In this document: piece after piece, positions 10,724 through 19,009 of the stretch
Numbering within the stretch: position 1 is the stretch's first letter
Layout: every line of letters starts with the position of its first letter
Assembly (NCBI GenBank): GCA_001871075.1
Contig: MNUP01000061.1
Span: 1 to 20,314, forward strand
Direction: 5' to 3'
Source: Candidatus Desantisbacteria bacterium CG1_02_49_89
GTDB taxonomy: Bacteria; Desantisbacteria; UBA1551
Length of the DNA: 20,314 nt
Notes under the pieces: generated by a model
Told to the model about the DNA's origin: nothing
The model's input: the letters and a program-made list of their open reading frames with translations, nothing else
Databases searched by the model: none
Made by a program: the position numbers and the translations under genes

Positions 10724-10752
10724 TTGACAAATTGAATAAAATGTGTTATAAT
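10724..10752 (+). promoter_or_regulatory. Strong sigma-70-type promoter of the met/cys operon (P1)
   Basis: TTGACA (10724-10729), a 17-nt spacer, and TATAAT (10747-10752): both boxes match the consensus exactly. The -10 is preceded by tgtgt. Nearly the same promoter, including the aacttgacaaat and gtgttataatgtt context, stands at 18129-18157. Transcription should begin near 10759. Confidence 0.93.
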
Positions 10753-10763
10753 GTTTCTAATAT

Positions 10764-10785
10764 AACAATTCCTATAGGAATTGTT
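10764..10785 (+). promoter_or_regulatory. 22-bp perfect palindromic operator, Rrf2/CymR-like
   Basis: Perfect inverted repeat with half-site AACAATTCCTA followed by its exact complement TAGGAATTGTT. It lies just downstream of the expected transcription start, where a bound repressor would block initiation or escape. The GGAATT/AATTCC half-sites resemble those I recall for CymR, the Rrf2-family cysteine repressor of Firmicutes. A second copy is at 18167-18186 behind the other sulfur promoter. The regulator gene is not in the window. Confidence 0.85.
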
Positions 10786-10813
10786 GACATTAAGATTTTA
10801 GCAAAATTATGAT
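10784..10813 (+). promoter_or_regulatory. Possible secondary promoter overlapping the operator
   Basis: TTGACA (10784-10789) overlaps the right end of the operator. After an 18-nt spacer comes TATGAT (10808-10813), one mismatch from consensus. If used, it would also be blocked by the repressor. At the second operator the TTGACA is present (18186-18191) but no -10 follows, so this may be chance. Confidence 0.3.
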
Positions 10814-10819
10814 TTAACC

Positions 10820-10839
10820 CCCCGCGGCTTGCCGCGGGG
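10820..10839 (+). promoter_or_regulatory. Perfect 8-bp GC hairpin in the mRNA leader
   Basis: CCCCGCGG-cttg-CCGCGGGG. It is in the transcribed leader 41 nt before the leader-peptide start and has no U-tract, so it is not a classical terminator. It could stabilise the 5' end, pause RNA polymerase to synchronise it with the ribosome, or be a repeat insertion. Confidence 0.6.
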
Positions 10840-10879
10840 TAATTCAAATATCTGAACGAAGGTAGAGGGGAGCATCGCA

Positions 10880-11026
10880 GTGAAGAAGCAACTGTTTGAG
10901 AACACAGACATTTTGAATTCTAACGAAGCTCATCATCCGCGCAATAGCGCAGAATCTTGTATGTGCTGCGGAATTGCTATGTGCAACTGTCTGCGGATAA
11001 TGGGCATTGCGGAGGTGTTGTCATAA
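10880..11026 (+). CDS. Cys/Met-rich leader peptide, 48 aa (attenuator control peptide)
   Basis: A short gene with GTG start (10880) and gagggga (about 10866-10871) at good spacing, ending at TAA 11024-11026. It encodes MKKQLFENTDILNSNE..., and residues 27-37 are C-M-C-C-G-I-A-M-C-N-C: five Cys and two Met codons within eleven (10958-10990). It sits between a sulfur-type promoter/operator and metY and is followed by an intrinsic terminator. The last codons include GATAATGGGC (10996-11005), the exact complement of GCCCATTATC in the terminator's 5' arm (11071-11080). By analogy with trp/his/leu leaders, slow translation at the Cys codons would favour the antiterminator. A small metal-binding Cys peptide is the alternative. 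Confidence 0.75.
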   Translation: MKKQLFENTDILNSNEAHHPRNSAESCMCCGIAMCNCLRIMGIAEVLS

Positions 11027-11105
11027 TATAATAAGGAAAGAAATCCGGAAAAGACTTATGGAAACCCTAAGCCCATTATCAGAAGACTGATGGTGGGCTT
11101 TTTTT
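10996..11105 (+). terminator. Attenuator: antiterminator strand plus 13-bp intrinsic terminator
   Basis: The terminator stem is AGCCCATTATCAG (11070-11082) paired with CTGATGGTGGGCT (11087-11099): 13 pairs including two G-U, loop aaga, followed by seven T (11099-11105). GATAATGGGC (10996-11005), inside the leader gene, is fully complementary to 11071-11080. It can therefore form a mutually exclusive antiterminator hairpin. It stands between the leader peptide and metY, exactly where transcription attenuation would act. Confidence 0.82.
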
Positions 11106-11113
11106 GTTTTTAA

Positions 11114-12502
<1,389 letters not shown>

Positions 12503-12566: not shown

Positions 12567-13718
12567 ATGACGGATAAAAAAGGTATTGGGACTGTTGAAA
12601 CGCAATATTATACGTTTGCGCATCCGCCGGGTTCATTTATTCTTGAAAACAGTGGAAGGCTTGGTTTGGTTACGCTCGCGTACGAGACGTACGGCAGGCT
12701 GAACAACGAAAGGTCAAACGCCGTGCTCATAGCGCATGCCCTGTCCGGAGACGCCCACGCAGCGGGTTTTCACAAAGGTGACGAGAATCCGGGCTGGTGG
12801 GATAATATGATAGGGCCGGGCAGGGCATTTGATACCGATAAATATTTCGTTATCTGCTCGAATGTCATCGGTGGATGCAGGGGGTCAACCGGCCCGTCTT
12901 CCATAGATCCAGAGACACGCAGGCCGTACGGCCTTGATTTTCCGTCCATAACCATAACGGATATGGTAAATGCCCAGAGACTTCTTATTGATCATCTGGG
13001 CATTGAAAAACTTCTTTCCGCGGCAGGCGGTTCAATGGGCGGAATGCAGGTTCTGGAATGGATGGTTTCCTATCCGGGGCGGATCAGAAGCGCCATACCC
13101 ATTTCCACGGCAGCAAGGCACTCGCCGCAGCAGATTGCTTTTAATGAAGTCGGCAGGCAGGCTATTATGGCTGACGCCAACTGGAAAAACGGTTATTATT
13201 ACGGGAAAGAACCGCCTGACAGGGGGCTTGCTGTGGCGAGAATGGTGGGGCACATCACTTTTATGAGCGATAGATCAATGGCTGAGAAATTCGGCAGGCA
13301 GTTAAAGAACAGGAAAGAATTCTCCATGTTTGGGGCTGATTTTGAAGTGGAGGGATACCTGCAATACCGCGGCAGCAGTTTCGTAAAAAGGTTTGACGCC
13401 AATTCCTATCTTTACATCACCAAGGCAATGGATAATTACGATGCGTCCAGGGGCAGGGAACTCAGCGAGGTTTTTAAGGGCATTGACGCGAGAGTCCTGG
13501 TCCTGGCTTTCAAATCGGACTGGCTTTATCCGGCATACCAGTCCCTGGAAATTGTCAAGGCCTGCAAGCTTGCAGGGCTGGAAGCCAGTTACTGCGAGAC
13601 AGGTTCCGCATACGGTCACGATGCCTTCCTGTTAGAGACGGAAGAGGAAACGCATCTTATAAAACATTTCCTGGAGAAGGTTTTTCTCCGGAGGGTGAAT
13701 GGAGAATATGAGATATAA
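12567..13718 (+). CDS. metX: Homoserine O-acetyltransferase, 383 aa
   Basis: Alpha/beta-hydrolase-fold enzyme that acetylates L-homoserine with acetyl-CoA, making the substrate of MetY. The nucleophile is S156 in AAGGSMGGMQVLEW. The triad is completed by Asp in FKSDWLYP (about residue 314) and His in YGHDAFLLE (about 351). Other MetX signatures are LIAHALSGDAHAAG (54-67), WWDNMIGPGRAFDTDKYFVICSNVIGGCRGSTGP (77-110) and VGHITFMSDRSMAEKFGR. Length is typical. Succinyl- versus acetyl-CoA use cannot be read with certainty, but the neighbouring MetY argues for acetyl. ATG start at 12567 after atggggag. It overlaps metW by 20 nt, a gene pair common in many bacteria. Confidence 0.94.
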   Translation: MTDKKGIGTVETQYYTFAHPPGSFILENSGRLGLVTLAYETYGRLNNERSNAVLIAHALSGDAHAAGFHKGDENPGWWDNMIGPGRAFDTDKYFVICSNVIGGCRGSTGPSSIDPETRRPYGLDFPSITITDMVNAQRLLIDHLGIEKLLSAAGGSMGGMQVLEWMVSYPGRIRSAIPISTAARHSPQQIAFNEVGRQAIMADANWKNGYYYGKEPPDRGLAVARMVGHITFMSDRSMAEKFGRQLKNRKEFSMFGADFEVEGYLQYRGSSFVKRFDANSYLYITKAMDNYDASRGRELSEVFKGIDARVLVLAFKSDWLYPAYQSLEIVKACKLAGLEASYCETGSAYGHDAFLLETEEETHLIKHFLEKVFLRRVNGEYEI

Positions 13719-14340
13719 TTCTGCCGGGCCAGAGCAAAAAATAATTTTTGAGCTTGTAAAACCCGGCTCGTCTGTTCTGGACCTCGGATGCGGGGATGGA
13801 GAATTACTGTCCCTGCTGGCCAGAGAAAAAAAAGTTAAAGGTCAGGGGATAGAAATAAACGAGAAGTCGATACATGAATGCGTGGCAAAGGGGCTTAATG
13901 TATTCCACGGCGACATAGACTCGGGGCTGTCCGATTACCGGGATAAGTCCTTTGACTACGTGATACTCAACCACAGCCTGCAGGAGGCCAAAAAGCCGGA
14001 GGTCGTTTTAAGGGAAGCCCTGCGGGCAGGCAGGAAGGCCATAGTGAGTTTCCCGAACTTCGCCCATTACTCGGCGCGCCTGCAGATATTTTTCAGGGGA
14101 AAAACTCCCGTTACCCCTTCTCTGCCCCACAGATGGTATGACACGCCCAATCTTCATTTCCTGAGCATTTCAGATTTTGCCGAATATTGCCGGGAGAGGA
14201 ACATCATGATAGAAAAATCCTTGTTTATCGGAAAGAACAAAGCTGTATATATATTCCCGAACCTGTTTGCGCTGGCAGGAATATTTCTTATCGCAAACGG
14301 AAAACCGGGAAAGTTTCTGATGAAAAAGGAGGATGTATGA
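13699..14340 (+). CDS. metW: MetW, methionine-biosynthesis methyltransferase-like protein, 213 aa
   Basis: Class I methyltransferase fold of the MetW family, which is found with metX and is thought to assist homoserine acetylation; its reaction is not established. Motif I is SSVLDLGCGDGELLSLLA (24-41), followed by GQGIEINEKSIHECVAKGLNVFHGDIDSGL (48-77). The family's signature stretches FDYVILNHSLQE and RKAIVSFPNFAHYSARLQIFFRGKTPVTPSLPHRWYDTPNLHFLS (about 113-157) are intact, as is the ending KNKAVYIFPNLFALAGIFLI. The start at 13699 has gagggt just upstream; an alternative ATG is at 13708. The metX overlap and the ATGA junction with the next gene indicate a tight translationally coupled trio. 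Confidence 0.93.
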   Translation: MENMRYNSAGPEQKIIFELVKPGSSVLDLGCGDGELLSLLAREKKVKGQGIEINEKSIHECVAKGLNVFHGDIDSGLSDYRDKSFDYVILNHSLQEAKKPEVVLREALRAGRKAIVSFPNFAHYSARLQIFFRGKTPVTPSLPHRWYDTPNLHFLSISDFAEYCRERNIMIEKSLFIGKNKAVYIFPNLFALAGIFLIANGKPGKFLMKKEDV

Positions 14341-15479
14341 ATGAGTATAGGTATCTTGAACTCAAGGCAGAATTGCTTGCCGAAGGCATCCAGGCATCGG
14401 AAGAAGCCCTGAGTGGAGTGGGCAATGAATATAAGGAGCAGAATCATGGTCTGTTTGGATGGGATTTTGAGGACCATGTCGGAACGAGTCTCCCGGATGA
14501 TTTCATGCTTCCGGATGGAACGATTGTCCAGTTCAGGAAAAACAGCCGCTCGCCGTATAAAGTTTCCGGGAAAGGAAACAACCTGACCCTGTCAAAAGGA
14601 GAGGAGGAAATATGCAGAGCCGAATGGCTGCCGAGACCCGCATATTATAATAAGGAAACCGCGAACAACAACAAGATGGTGAAGATCGGGCAGGTAGGGG
14701 GCGGGGACTGCCTGTTCTTCTGCTATCAGAATTACTGCAGCCATTTTGCCGGGAACGAAGAATGCCTTTTCTGCAACCTTGTCTCAACCTTAAAGACCTA
14801 TGACTCTGTGCTAAAAAAGAAGGATACCGAGGATATAGGGGAAGTCGCGGGAGAAGCTTTTTCCGAGGGCAAAGTAAAGCACGTCTTGCTCACCGGCGGA
14901 TGCTTCAATCATCAGAAAGAGATAGAGCTTGTTGCAGATATTATGAAATCAATACGGAAAAAGACGGGTTTCAGCCGCGTCCCGGGGACAATCCTTCCTT
15001 CTCCCGCGAAAGGCGAAGACGAAATAAAGAAATATTATGATACAGGAATTCAAGCGATCGGTTTCAGCATGGAGATATGGGATGAAAAATTATACCAGGC
15101 AATCTGCCCGGGAAAATCCAAAAATACAAGCCGCGGGACTTTTGTCAATTCAATAGAAACAGCGGTTAAGATTTTCGGGGCAGGCAACGTATACGGAGTG
15201 TTCGTTATGGGATTGGAACCGAAGAGAACATTCCTGGAGGGTGTCAGGGAAATCACAAATATGGGGGCAAACGTTGTTCCGTTCGTATGGTCGCCCAATC
15301 CGGGCTCAAAACTCGAAGGTCACAGGGCTCCGGCAGGCGGGTGGTTTGTTGAAACAACGCTGGAAGCCTCAGAAATAGTATGTAACGCAGGAGTCCCGTC
15401 AGGAATTGAGAACCATTGCTATAAATGCGACGGGAACTCCCTGCTCCACGATGCACTGCGCTTAAAAGGAATTGAGTAA
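14337..15479 (+). CDS. Radical SAM protein, biotin-synthase-like, of unknown role in the metX-metW operon, 380 aa
   Basis: Iron-sulfur radical SAM enzyme; substrate unknown. The cluster region is CLFFCYQNYCSHFAGNEECLFC (residues 125-146). The most likely ligands are C134, C143 and C146, a CX8CX2C spacing rather than the canonical CX3CX2C, with two extra Cys (C125, C129) before them. Barrel landmarks follow: HVLLTGGCFNHQKEIELVADIM (the GGE-like strand, 182-203), GIQAIGFSMEIWDEKLYQAICPGKSK (237-262) and GNVYGVFVMGLEP (283-295). A C-terminal pair CYKC (361-364) may bind another metal. A roughly 120-residue N-terminal extension has no known domain. The ATG at 14337 overlaps the metW stop (ATGA) with aaaggagga upstream, so cotranslation with metX-metW suggests a sulfur or methionine role. 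A frame-open extension to 14187 is rejected. Confidence 0.82.
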   Translation: MNEYRYLELKAELLAEGIQASEEALSGVGNEYKEQNHGLFGWDFEDHVGTSLPDDFMLPDGTIVQFRKNSRSPYKVSGKGNNLTLSKGEEEICRAEWLPRPAYYNKETANNNKMVKIGQVGGGDCLFFCYQNYCSHFAGNEECLFCNLVSTLKTYDSVLKKKDTEDIGEVAGEAFSEGKVKHVLLTGGCFNHQKEIELVADIMKSIRKKTGFSRVPGTILPSPAKGEDEIKKYYDTGIQAIGFSMEIWDEKLYQAICPGKSKNTSRGTFVNSIETAVKIFGAGNVYGVFVMGLEPKRTFLEGVREITNMGANVVPFVWSPNPGSKLEGHRAPAGGWFVETTLEASEIVCNAGVPSGIENHCYKCDGNSLLHDALRLKGIE

Positions 15480-15568
15480 TCCCCCTGCAATCCCCCTTTA
15501 TAAATCCCGGTTATATCAGTATGGGATCCCGTATGCGAATGTATCGGGAAGGGGGAATAAGGGGGATT
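15478..15568 (+). repeat. Long intercistronic hairpin before cbs, a longer relative of 12507-12548
   Basis: AATCCCCC (15478-15485) pairs with GGGGGATT (15561-15568), and CCCCCTT (15492-15498) pairs with AAGGGGG (15549-15555). The loop that is 2 nt at 12528-12529 is here about 50 nt. It contains its own inverted sequences (TCCCG/CGGGA and the palindrome GGGATCCC), as if a further element had entered the loop. It begins inside the stop codon of the radical SAM gene. Confidence 0.8.
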
Positions 15569-15585
15569 TGAAAACGGAGGCATAA

Positions 15586-16953
15586 ATGGGCCGGGAATTT
15601 AGCAACGTGCTTGAGACTATCGGCAGGACGCCGCTTATCAGGTTAAACAAAATGACGAAAGAGATCAAATCAAAGATATACGTCAAGGCTGAATCGTTCA
15701 ACCCGGGCGGAAGCGTAAAAGACAGAATAGGCCTTGCCATGATAGAAGCAGCTGAAAAAGAAGGACTTGTAAAACCCGGAGGTACGATTGTCGAGGCTAC
15801 AGCAGGCAATACCGGCGTTGGTCTTGCGCTTGCGACTGCAATCAAGGGTTACAGGACGATATTTGTCATACCGGATAAAATGAGCGAGGACAAGGTCGTC
15901 CTGCTGCGGGCATACGGGGCAGAAGTTGTCATTACTCCGACTTCCGTGCCTCCGGATTCTCCGCAGAGCTATAACGGGGTGGCTGACAGGCTTGCCAGGG
16001 AAATACCCGGGGCATTCAGGCCCAACCAGTTTGCCAATCCGAACAACCCCCTTGCCCATTATCAGACGACCGGCCCGGAGATCTGGAAAGACTCAGGCGG
16101 CAGGGTTGAGGTGTTTGTGGCGGGAATGGGCACAGGCGGCACAATTTCGGGAATAGCAAAATATCTAAAAGAGAAAAAATCAGGCATAATCATAGTCGGG
16201 GCAGACCCTGAGGGCTCAATACTTTCAGGGGACAGCCCCAGGTCGTATAAGGTGGAGGGAATCGGGGAGGATTTCATACCCAGGACGTTTGACCGCCAGA
16301 TAGTTGACGAAATGATACGAGTCAGCGACAAGGAATCGTTTAATACAGCCAGGCGGCTTGCCAGGGAAGAGGGCATTCTTGCAGGCGGCTCGTCCGGAAC
16401 AGCCGTTGCAGCCGCCCTGAAATTCGCAATGCGGCTGGAAAAACCGAAATACATAGTTGCGCTCCTGCCTGACACCGGCAGAAATTACCTGACGAAGATA
16501 TTCTCAGACTCCTGGATGCAGGAGAACGGCTTCTGGGAAGGCAGGGACATAAGGCCGTTAAAGGTCGGGGAAATCCTTGCGAAGAAGAAAGATTTCCCGC
16601 GGATGATTTCTGTCAGCCCGAAGGATATTCTAAGCAAGGCGGTAAGGCTGATGCATAAATACGGCATTTCGCAGATTCCTGTAGTTGACAGGGGAAAATC
16701 CGTGGGCAGCTTAGACGAGGCGTCCCTGATGAAACTCCTGCACGACGGAATAGATTTCAGCAAGCAGAATATTTCTGCGGTTATGGGCAGGCCCCTGCCG
16801 GTGCTTGATGAGGAAACAGACGTATCAGAGGCATACAGAATACTCCTGTCAGGCACGACCGGCTTTATTGTTGCCAGAAAAGGCGTGTCTGCCGGGGTTA
16901 TCACCAGGACGGATTTAATAAATTACTGGATCATAAAAAAGGAGGGCGGATGA
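15586..16953 (+). CDS. cbs: Cystathionine beta-synthase with C-terminal CBS-domain pair, 455 aa
   Basis: PLP enzyme, fold type II: L-serine (or an activated serine) + L-homocysteine gives cystathionine. FSNVLETIGRTPLIRL (5-20) begins the catalytic domain. PLP Lys is K45 in NPGGSVKDRIGL, the asparagine loop is EATAGNTGVGLALA, and the phosphate-binding loop is MGTGGTISGI; GGSSGTAVAAAL follows. From about residue 335 a Bateman module with two CBS motifs follows (RMISVSPKDILSKAVRLMHKYGISQIPVVD, then ISAVMGRPLPVLDEETDVSEAYRILLSGTTGFIVA). This points to CBS rather than plain cysteine synthase, perhaps with adenosyl-ligand regulation. ATG at 15586 after aacggaggc. It overlaps the gamma-lyase gene by ATGA, which supports a reverse transsulfuration role. 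Confidence 0.9.
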   Translation: MGREFSNVLETIGRTPLIRLNKMTKEIKSKIYVKAESFNPGGSVKDRIGLAMIEAAEKEGLVKPGGTIVEATAGNTGVGLALATAIKGYRTIFVIPDKMSEDKVVLLRAYGAEVVITPTSVPPDSPQSYNGVADRLAREIPGAFRPNQFANPNNPLAHYQTTGPEIWKDSGGRVEVFVAGMGTGGTISGIAKYLKEKKSGIIIVGADPEGSILSGDSPRSYKVEGIGEDFIPRTFDRQIVDEMIRVSDKESFNTARRLAREEGILAGGSSGTAVAAALKFAMRLEKPKYIVALLPDTGRNYLTKIFSDSWMQENGFWEGRDIRPLKVGEILAKKKDFPRMISVSPKDILSKAVRLMHKYGISQIPVVDRGKSVGSLDEASLMKLLHDGIDFSKQNISAVMGRPLPVLDEETDVSEAYRILLSGTTGFIVARKGVSAGVITRTDLINYWIIKKEGG

Positions 16954-18086
16954 GATTTGAGACAAGGGCGATACATTCTGGCCAGGACCCGGATTCGGCA
17001 ACCGGAGCGGTCATCGTGCCTGTTTACCAGACATCCACATACAGGCAGGATGCGATAGGAAAGCACAAGGGCTATGAGTATTCGCGCACGGGAAATCCGA
17101 CGCGAAAGGCGCTTGAGGACGCCCTTGCCTCTCTGGAAGGCGGAAAGCACGGGCTTGCCTTTGCTTCTGGGCTTGCCGCAACGACGGCCGTGTTCAGCAT
17201 TTTAAAAAAAGGAGACCACGTTATAGCCGGGGATGACATTTACGGCGGGACCTACAGGCTGCTTGAAAAGGTATTCAGGCGCTGGGGCCTAGAAGTCACC
17301 TACGCGGACGCGGACGACGGGGACGCCTTTCAGGGTGCGGTCCAGGAGAATACAAAACTCATCTGGATTGAAACGCCCACTAATCCGCTTCTGAAAATCG
17401 TTGATGTTAAAAAGCTTTCCGAGATAACAAAAAAGGAAAATATAATTCTTGCGGTGGACAACACGTTTGCAACCCCTTATTTTCAAAGACCTCTTGAGCT
17501 TGGGGCTGATATCGTTGTCCACAGCACGACAAAATACCTGTCAGGGCACAGCGATATAATAGGCGGCGCCGCAATAACTTCAAGGCAGGATATATACATA
17601 GATTTGAAGTTTTACCAGAATGCCGCGGGAGCGGTTCCGGGCCCCTGGGATTCCTGGCTTGCTCTCCGCGGAATTAAAACCCTTTCCGTCAGGATGAGAG
17701 AACATGAAGGCAATGCCTTATATTTAGCCGGTTACCTTTCGGGGCATCCACGTGTAGAGAGGGTCTATTATCCCGGGCTGCCAGGGCACAGCCGGCATAA
17801 GTTAGCAAAAGAACAGATGAGCGGTTTCGGCGGGATGATAAGCTTTGAACTGAAAGGCGGTTTTCCCGAAGTTGAAAAATTCGTCTCCAGGCTGAAAATA
17901 TTTTTACTTGCAGAAAGCCTGGGCGGAGTGGAATCACTTGTTTGCTATCCTCCAAAGATGACGCACAGTTCTTTTTCCGCGGAAGAGAGGGCGAAAAGAG
18001 GGATCAAGGATAATTTAATAAGGCTTTCCGTGGGCATAGAGCATAAAGATGACCTCAAAGACGATTTAGAGCAGGCGCTGGGGTGA
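16950..18086 (+). CDS. mccB: Cystathionine gamma-lyase (trans-sulfuration PLP enzyme), 378 aa
   Basis: Splits cystathionine to cysteine, 2-oxobutyrate and ammonia, completing homocysteine-to-cysteine conversion; such enzymes can also release sulfide. Family marks: TRAIHSGQDPDSATGAVIVPVYQTSTY (5-31), YEYSRTGNPTR (42-52), ETPTNPLLKI (141-150), VDNTFATPY (169-177) and the Schiff-base Lys K195 in VHSTTKYLSGHSD. The ending is LGGVESLVCYPPKMTHSSF, then IRLSVGIEHKDDL. Cystathionine gamma-synthase (MetB) is very similar; I favour lyase because cbs is directly upstream with an ATGA overlap and MetX/MetY already provide homocysteine by direct sulfhydrylation. ATG at 16950 follows aaggagggc. Last gene before the second regulated promoter. 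Confidence 0.88.
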   Translation: MRFETRAIHSGQDPDSATGAVIVPVYQTSTYRQDAIGKHKGYEYSRTGNPTRKALEDALASLEGGKHGLAFASGLAATTAVFSILKKGDHVIAGDDIYGGTYRLLEKVFRRWGLEVTYADADDGDAFQGAVQENTKLIWIETPTNPLLKIVDVKKLSEITKKENIILAVDNTFATPYFQRPLELGADIVVHSTTKYLSGHSDIIGGAAITSRQDIYIDLKFYQNAAGAVPGPWDSWLALRGIKTLSVRMREHEGNALYLAGYLSGHPRVERVYYPGLPGHSRHKLAKEQMSGFGGMISFELKGGFPEVEKFVSRLKIFLLAESLGGVESLVCYPPKMTHSSFSAEERAKRGIKDNLIRLSVGIEHKDDLKDDLEQALG

Positions 18087-18128: not shown

Positions 18129-18157
18129 TTGACAAATCGGAAAAGGTGTGTTATAAT
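18129..18157 (+). promoter_or_regulatory. Strong sigma-70-type promoter of the thi4-cysH operon (P2)
   Basis: TTGACA (18129-18134), 17-nt spacer, TATAAT (18152-18157), both exact consensus. The flanks match P1 at 10724-10752 closely (acttgacaaat, ggtgtgttataatgtt), so the two probably arose by duplication or share a factor. The expected start is about 18164. Confidence 0.93.
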
Positions 18158-18166
18158 GTTATTATG

Positions 18167-18186
18167 ACAATTCCTATAGGAATAGT
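18167..18186 (+). promoter_or_regulatory. Palindromic operator, second copy (one mismatched pair)
   Basis: ACAATTCCTA followed by TAGGAATAGT: identical to the operator at 10765-10784 except for one base in the right arm. It overlaps the expected transcription start. Unlike P1 there is no leader peptide or terminator; the thi4 ribosome-binding site follows within 35 nt. This operon therefore appears to be controlled by the repressor alone. Confidence 0.85.
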
Positions 18187-18218: not shown

Positions 18219-19009
18219 ATGGCAGAGAAAGTAAGTTTTAGTCCAGTTGGTGAAAAGGAAGTTACGCGAGCAATAGCAGAATCTTTTTTGAAGCAATTTC
18301 AGGATTATGCTGACAGCGACGTAATCATTGTAGGGGCAGGTCCGTCCGGGTTAATGGCCGGAAGAGATCTGGCGAGTAAGAAAATTAAAGTTTTAATAAT
18401 AGAGAGAAATAATTATCTCGGAGGAGGTTTCTGGATAGGTGGTTATCTGATGAACAAGGTTACGGTGAGGTCCCCGGGAGAAAAAGTCCTTGAAGAACTG
18501 GGCGTGCCGTTTGAAAAGGCGGTAGAGGGATTATTCGTAGCAGACGGTCACATGCTTGTTCAAAACTGATTGCCGCTGCCTGCGATGCAGGCGTGAAGTT
18601 TGCAAATATGACTATTTTTGACGATGTAATTTTGAGAGAAAACAACAAAGTTGGCGGCGTGGTAATTAATTGGACGTCCGTATCTGCGCTTCCCAGAGAG
18701 ATTACCTGCGTGGACCCCGTTGGTCTGGAATCGAAACTGGTCATCGATGCCACGGGCCACGATGCAGTGGTGGTGAAAAAACTCGAAGCAAGAGGTCTAA
18801 CTAAAACAAAGGGTTTTGGAGCAATGTGGGTGGAAAAATCAGAAGACCTGCTGGTGGAACACACAGGGGAAGTACATCCCGGGCTTGTCGTTGCAGGGAT
18901 GGCTGTAACCACTACTTACGGTTTGCCGCGAATGGGTCCAACTTTCGGAGCGATGCTTTTGTCCGGCAGAAAAGCGGCAGAGTCTGCGACGCAGATGTTA
19001 AAAAAATGA
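18219..19009 (+). pseudogene. thi4: Thi4-type thiamine thiazole synthase, split by a one-base frameshift (263 aa if rejoined)
   Basis: Makes the thiazole phosphate precursor of thiamine from NAD and glycine. Frame 1 (ATG 18219, after aaaggagg) carries ITRAIAESFL-like start, DVIIVGAGPSGLMAGRDLA (FAD/NAD Rossmann motif) and LGGGFWIGGYLMNKVTVR. It ends at TGA 18567-18569. The remainder continues in the -1 frame from AAA (18563): [16 protein letters not shown]..., [12 protein letters not shown] and the typical ending [18 protein letters not shown]. One A missing from CAAAAC would restore a full-length protein, so this may be an assembly error, a real mutation or recoding; the slippery site is poor. 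Residue C164 (TCVDP) aligns with yeast Cys205, the sulfur donor, where sulfide-using archaeal enzymes have His. It is coupled to the next gene by ATGA. Confidence 0.85.

Follow-up and report, generated by a model that had tools for sequence, protein, structure and literature searches.

The gene for O-acetylhomoserine sulfhydrylase, metY, is preceded in a 20,314-nt stretch of DNA from Candidatus Desantisbacteria bacterium CG1_02_49_89 (the whole stretch is referred to as the window) by a short, cysteine-rich open reading frame (ORF) and a hairpin, which raises the question of how expression of this gene is controlled. In the trp, his, leu, thr and ilv attenuators of enterobacteria, a short translated leader containing control codons is followed by a competing antiterminator and intrinsic terminator, with a biosynthetic operon downstream. 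The window has the same layout and differs in having Cys and Met control codons and an operon led by metY. Our analyses indicated, with a probability of about 0.86, that the element in the window is a trp-type ribosome-mediated attenuator that senses the charging of tRNA-Cys and, very probably, that of tRNA-Met as well. The features of the region are listed in Table 1.

Table 1. Features of the metY region, with positions in the window
Feature	Position	Strand	Remark
Consensus sigma-70 promoter (TTGACA, 17 nt, TGTTATAAT)	10724..10752	+	12/12 match
Perfect 22-bp palindrome AACAATTCCTATAGGAATTGTT, probable operator	10764..10785	.	just after transcription start
Shine-Dalgarno sequence of leader ORF, GAGGGGAG	10865..10872	+	direct reading; 7 nt before start
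Leader ORF	10880..11026	+	48 codons, GTG 10880 to TAA 11024-11026; peptide (V/M)KKQLFENTDILNSNEAHHPRNSAESCMCCGIAMCNCLRIMGIAEVLS
Strand 1, CATCATCCGC	10931..10940	+	can pair with strand 2 absent a blocking ribosome; fold of 10880-11108 without ribosome
Control codons Cys-Met-Cys-Cys-Gly-Ile-Ala-Met-Cys-Asn-Cys	10958..10990	+	recomputed from sequence
Strand 2, antiterminator 5' arm	10993..11005	+	10996-11005 perfectly complementary to 11071-11080
Strand 3, terminator 5' arm	11069..11082	+	
Strand 4, terminator 3' arm (11087-11100) and T-tract	11087..11110	+	
metY, O-acetylhomoserine sulfhydrylase (Cys_Met_Meta_PP)	11195..12502	+	PF01053, E=1.5e-130; 71-88% identical to relatives
Likely operon genes downstream of metY	12567..18086	+	listed per gene below
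metX	12567-13718	+	
metW	13699-14340	+	
Radical-SAM protein	within 14187-15479	+	
PLP-dependent cysteine synthase/CBS-type enzyme with CBS domains	15586-16953	+	
Cystathionine lyase/synthase-type enzyme	16950-18086	+	

Reading and recomputation of the sequence confirmed the leader gene of 48 codons reported in the preliminary description, with five Cys codons (10958, 10964, 10967, 10982 and 10988) and two Met codons (10961 and 10979) within 11 codons. This cluster of end-product codons recurs in other lineages. The Shine-Dalgarno sequence was graded good, and translation is predicted for this short ORF, which lies with its ribosome-binding site upstream of the operon. The peptide matched no Pfam family, and a protein similarity search of 59 genomes of other families detected chance-level matches only; judged by these searches, it is not conserved as a protein.

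An intrinsic terminator with a T-tract is present between the leader and the first gene, as had been described, although its stem has 14 pairs (11069-11082 with 11087-11100) rather than 13. It starts 42 nt past the leader stop codon and consists of this stem, a 4-nt loop and the T-tract TTTTTGTTTT. Recomputation also upheld the complementarity that had been claimed for the leader gene: the segment GATAATGGGC, which lies immediately past the Cys cluster, is fully reverse-complementary to the positions in the terminator 5' arm given in Table 1. A further stem formed by GCAATAGCGCAG with CTGCGGAATTGC exists as proposed, but the predicted fold of the whole leader instead pairs CATCATCCGC with GCGGATAATG (10993-11002). 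When the leader is not translated, the predicted structure thus has strand 1 paired with strand 2 and the terminator formed by strands 3 and 4. A search of the window with Rfam covariance models at gathering scores gave no match, including to the SAM riboswitch.

The influence of ribosome position on these structures was examined in a scan along the leader. At equilibrium, the terminator won wherever the ribosome was placed on the leader of the window, and likewise in nearly all relatives. Because the equilibrium probability of the terminator was uninformative for this reason, engagement was measured as the hold exerted on the terminator 5' arm while the 3' arm has yet to be transcribed. When the A site was placed at 10958-10985, strand 2 lay downstream of the ribosome and the upstream RNA held the 5' arm with 7-14 kcal/mol; from the last Cys codon (10988) onwards, the ribosome covered strand 2 and the hold was reduced to 0-4 kcal/mol. 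By this energy profile, the antiterminator would be free when the ribosome stalls and masked otherwise, whereas equilibrium folding favors the terminator. With the terminator so favored, control must, in this model, be kinetic, as in trp, and exerted while the leader is being transcribed. For the window taken by itself, the hold was only modestly higher than in shuffled sequences (p=0.02 by duplex and p=0.11 by ensemble calculation). Counting against the model, a ribosome at the leader stop codon is ~20 nt past strand 2.

The ORF, its codons, the complementarity, the terminator, the energy profile and the recurrence in other lineages were directly established; we infer that the leader is translated and that charged tRNA is the signal, and likewise the direction of control. 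When both tRNAs are charged, a ribosome trailing RNA polymerase would pass the Cys/Met codons and cover strand 2; strand 3 would then pair with strand 4, and transcription would stop near 11105. When either tRNA is uncharged, the ribosome would stall on the cluster and leave strand 2 free to capture the nascent strand 3, in which case the terminator would form too late and metY-metX-metW and the genes behind them would be transcribed. In the absence of a ribosome, strand 1 could hold strand 2, and the default would be termination. The bacterium would, very probably, switch its sulfur pathway on when cysteine or methionine runs short.

The phylum of the window is represented by two genomes, the other of which has no metY, and the comparison was therefore drawn from other groups. 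It comprised 80 metY loci from GTDB genomes and further loci from genome searches, giving a total of 239 distinct upstream regions. A short ORF in which Cys and Met codons are clustered and interleaved, with an intrinsic terminator behind it, was detected in ∼29 of these 239 regions, which is not an estimate of prevalence, the sample having been partly drawn around leader-bearing clades. The cluster in these leaders ends some 15-50 nt before the terminator and roughly 90-170 nt before metY. Leaders were present in Desulfobacterota, Verrucomicrobiota/Kiritimatiellota, Bacteroidota and unnamed lineages, and the distribution was patchy, most metY genes having none. Examples of the cluster are FMIMCCVTMCC in a deltaproteobacterium (L029), MIMCCCTGACC in Syntrophus (L073), GMCMCC in Verrucomicrobia (L064), MGCCMC in Kiritimatiellae (L060) and SMIMCCMCCCCMC in Bacteroidales (L030), together with MMMCCPM (L032), MMCMC (L069), MCCLMCCMMC (L128) and MCMMMCM (L271). 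The attenuator reading of the preliminary description was supported by the finding of this arrangement ahead of metY in unrelated phyla, along with the ribosome-position modeling. In a Syntrophus-like genome (G391), two metY paralogues (L073 and L201) each have a different Cys/Met leader and a terminator, the second leader being MMMCCHM.

Further leaders were found in Bacteroidales (MCCCC, MCCCCC, MCMCCC, MCCC and MMCRMMM) at 86-168 nt before metY. No evident intrinsic terminator was seen in those inspected among these poly-Cys or, in one case, Met-rich leaders (L291, L304, L309, L310 and L315), which resemble the mycobacterial polycysteine type. These leaders end in or near the Cys run at the stop codon, with no clear terminator, as would be expected if metY were controlled by translational coupling or Rho-dependent termination, as proposed for mycobacteria, and not by an intrinsic terminator. 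For the window and the 29 main members, such control is improbable, as an intrinsic terminator follows the leader in all of them.

The engagement of the terminator 5' arm was then compared with that in dinucleotide-shuffled sequences. When the ribosome occupied the first Cys codon, the hold exceeded that of the shuffles in a set of 15 nonredundant leaders (Fisher p=1.8e-6), and a similar excess was detected in seven more leaders, identified later on a different criterion (p=2.6e-4). In most leaders the hold dropped where the Cys/Met cluster ends or shortly past it. Ordinary terminators elsewhere in the same loci had a mean z of 0.6, compared to 2.2 for the leaders (p=0.024, with only 12 controls). 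A first negative control set was itself enriched (p=0.002), and ORF fragments in some of these loci suggest that they hold riboswitches. Between L128 and L271, the pairing of strands 2 and 3 exhibited a compensatory change on both sides, from A-T to T-A. No good match for strand 2 was found in L196, L221, L239 or L205, and the model thus fits the members unequally.

These comparisons also bear on whether the ORF encodes a functional Cys-rich small protein, binding a metal or a thiol, with the hairpin merely the end of its mRNA. The ORF is indeed rich in Cys, and its peptide is only presumed inert; but the lack of a Pfam match, the divergence between members in spacing, in length and in the residues that flank the Cys/Met cluster, and the presence of a strand 2/strand 3 complementarity and of a drop near the cluster end, neither expected for a protein gene, make this explanation highly improbable.

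The preliminary description had put tRNA-Met forward as a possible second signal. Among leaders selected on Cys only, Met accounted for 42 of the 148 non-Cys residues near the Cys cluster (28%) as against 16 of 327 elsewhere (5%; p=5e-12), and Met was present in the core of all 15 nonredundant leaders chosen by Cys alone. The Met codons are therefore a systematic part of the signal and not incidental to it. Leaders of the thr and ilv operons mix codons of several end products and sense them. Because Met is enriched near the Cys cluster, the leaders at metY probably sense both sulfur amino acids, through tRNA-Cys and tRNA-Met. Near-pure Cys runs (L304, MCCCCC; L291, MCCCC) and the poly-Cys leaders of mycobacteria (PMC1262725) would fit a simpler arrangement in which cysteine alone is sensed and Met is incidental, but this was judged unlikely in view of the Met enrichment and of leaders in which Met outnumbers Cys (L271, MCMMMCM; L229, MLMGLMWMC).

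Relatives were found to have a SAM-I riboswitch (RF00162) in the same place before metY, which, unlike the leader of the window, binds S-adenosylmethionine directly and contains no ORF. In the class around G215, 13 of 16 metY genes had a SAM-I riboswitch and 3 had a leader, with none having both or neither. This distribution indicates that leader and riboswitch replace each other at metY in this class, a clear example of an exchange between two unrelated types of RNA regulator at one gene. In a Bacteroidales locus (L030), a SAM-I riboswitch (2607-2719) and a Cys/Met leader are present in tandem before one metY, the leader lying before 3001.

The preliminary description had called for comparison with related metY leaders, and the outcome for the closest relatives was divided: among the four closest metY genes, a leader is lacking in two (88% and 85% identical) and present in the other two (86% and 85%). 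The two without a leader would be compatible with a chance juxtaposition of a random Cys-rich ORF and the ordinary terminator of the upstream gene. However, an ORF with a Cys pair and a downstream terminator was detected 23 times in the sense orientation (about 20 being real-looking leaders) and only once in antisense among 165 distinct regions. This recurrence, the exact match of strands 2 and 3 in the window and the finding that leaders and SAM riboswitches exclude one another in one class largely rule out a chance explanation.

The genes behind metY were examined for their relation to cysteine. The set led by metY is presumably cotranscribed; judging from the family names, it produces homocysteine from sulfide, which can then be converted to methionine or, through reverse transsulfuration, into cysteine. 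In loci with a leader, the next gene after metY was of the cysteine-synthase/CBS type in 20 of 25 cases, compared to 45 of 147 without a leader (p=6e-6, uncorrected for kinship). Such a neighbor fits a need to sense cysteine.

Comparison with known systems identified partial likenesses. Polycysteine leaders precede the cys operons of mycobacteria and cbs of Bifidobacterium and are cysteine responsive; they have no conserved terminator, and Rho or translational control has been proposed (PMC1262725; Canestrari et al. 2020, as cited in PMC13236596). These leaders resemble that of the window in being Cys-rich ORFs before sulfur amino acid genes, but they occur in Actinobacteria, before other genes, and their Cys runs are near the stop codon. 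The window leader has no uninterrupted Cys run near its stop: Cys is interleaved with Met, the last Cys is 11 codons before the stop, and a terminator is present. The uORFC-8-2 motif before cysS of Rhodobacterales combines tandem Cys codons in a short upstream ORF with an intrinsic terminator (PMC8632094); it differs from the window in having two Cys codons only, in preceding an aminoacyl-tRNA synthetase gene and in being confined to one alphaproteobacterial order. The metL leader before metNIQ of Streptomyces lividans (...GARCMCRRMCAF) has interleaved Cys and Met codons and is described as methionine dependent, but its transcript is leaderless and no Rho-independent terminator was found (PMC8079986). 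Interleaved Cys/Met codons precede a methionine gene in both cases, metNIQ being uptake genes and not metY.

No report of a Cys/Met leader at metY was found in the open literature, subscription papers being outside the search. A dual Cys/Met attenuator at metY appears to be undescribed; ribosome-mediated attenuation and Cys leaders as such are already known. It is reasonably likely that these leaders form an undescribed class of attenuator whose interleaved Cys and Met codons serve to sense both sulfur amino acids at once, which originated at metY, or spread there, in four or more bacterial phyla, and which stands in for the SAM-I riboswitch where homocysteine is the source of both methionine and, through reverse transsulfuration, cysteine. 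The results indicate that metY, which is controlled by a SAM riboswitch in relatives, is regulated in many lineages through the ribosome, in response to charged tRNA-Cys and probably also to charged tRNA-Met. The leader also provides a sequence signature for sulfur starvation control in uncultured bacteria.

Upstream of the leader, the consensus promoter was present as described, with TTGACA-17-TATAAT matching at 12/12 positions. The palindromic operator that had been placed ahead of the leader is likewise a real 22-bp palindrome, but it is a separate module that does not generally accompany the leader in other loci. One further copy, differing by a single mismatch, was located at 18167-18186, and no other was detected in the 2.48-Mb genome at up to 3 mismatches. 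The promoter and operator together (TTGACA-17-TATAAT, ACAATTCCTATAGGAATAGT) are near-identical at 18129-18186, with the promoter copy at about 18129-18157, directly before a thi4-like gene and with no leader or terminator. This repetition suggests that metY and thi4 probably share one regulator and that a second, leader-based layer of control would be confined to metY. CymR/Rrf2 was rejected as the regulator, as no PF02082 match was found in the genome (G000, 93.5% complete), while this family was found in 13 of 14 control genomes.

The Thi4-family gene (18220-19009) is interrupted: the frame stops at 18569, and homology resumes in another frame just after. This looks like a single-base frameshift near an A run, whether true or a sequencing error. 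The closest MetY relative (88%; L027) lies directly behind a thi4-like gene and has no leader, so that thi4 and metY are linked again in this locus. A second promoter-like site at 10784-10813 was considered doubtful; its TTGACA is part of the repeat shared with thi4, and the remainder of the site is not shared. At 10817-10841, 5' of the Shine-Dalgarno sequence of the leader ORF, there is a strong, G+C-rich perfect hairpin (CCCCGCGG-CTTG-CCGCGGGG) with no T-tract.
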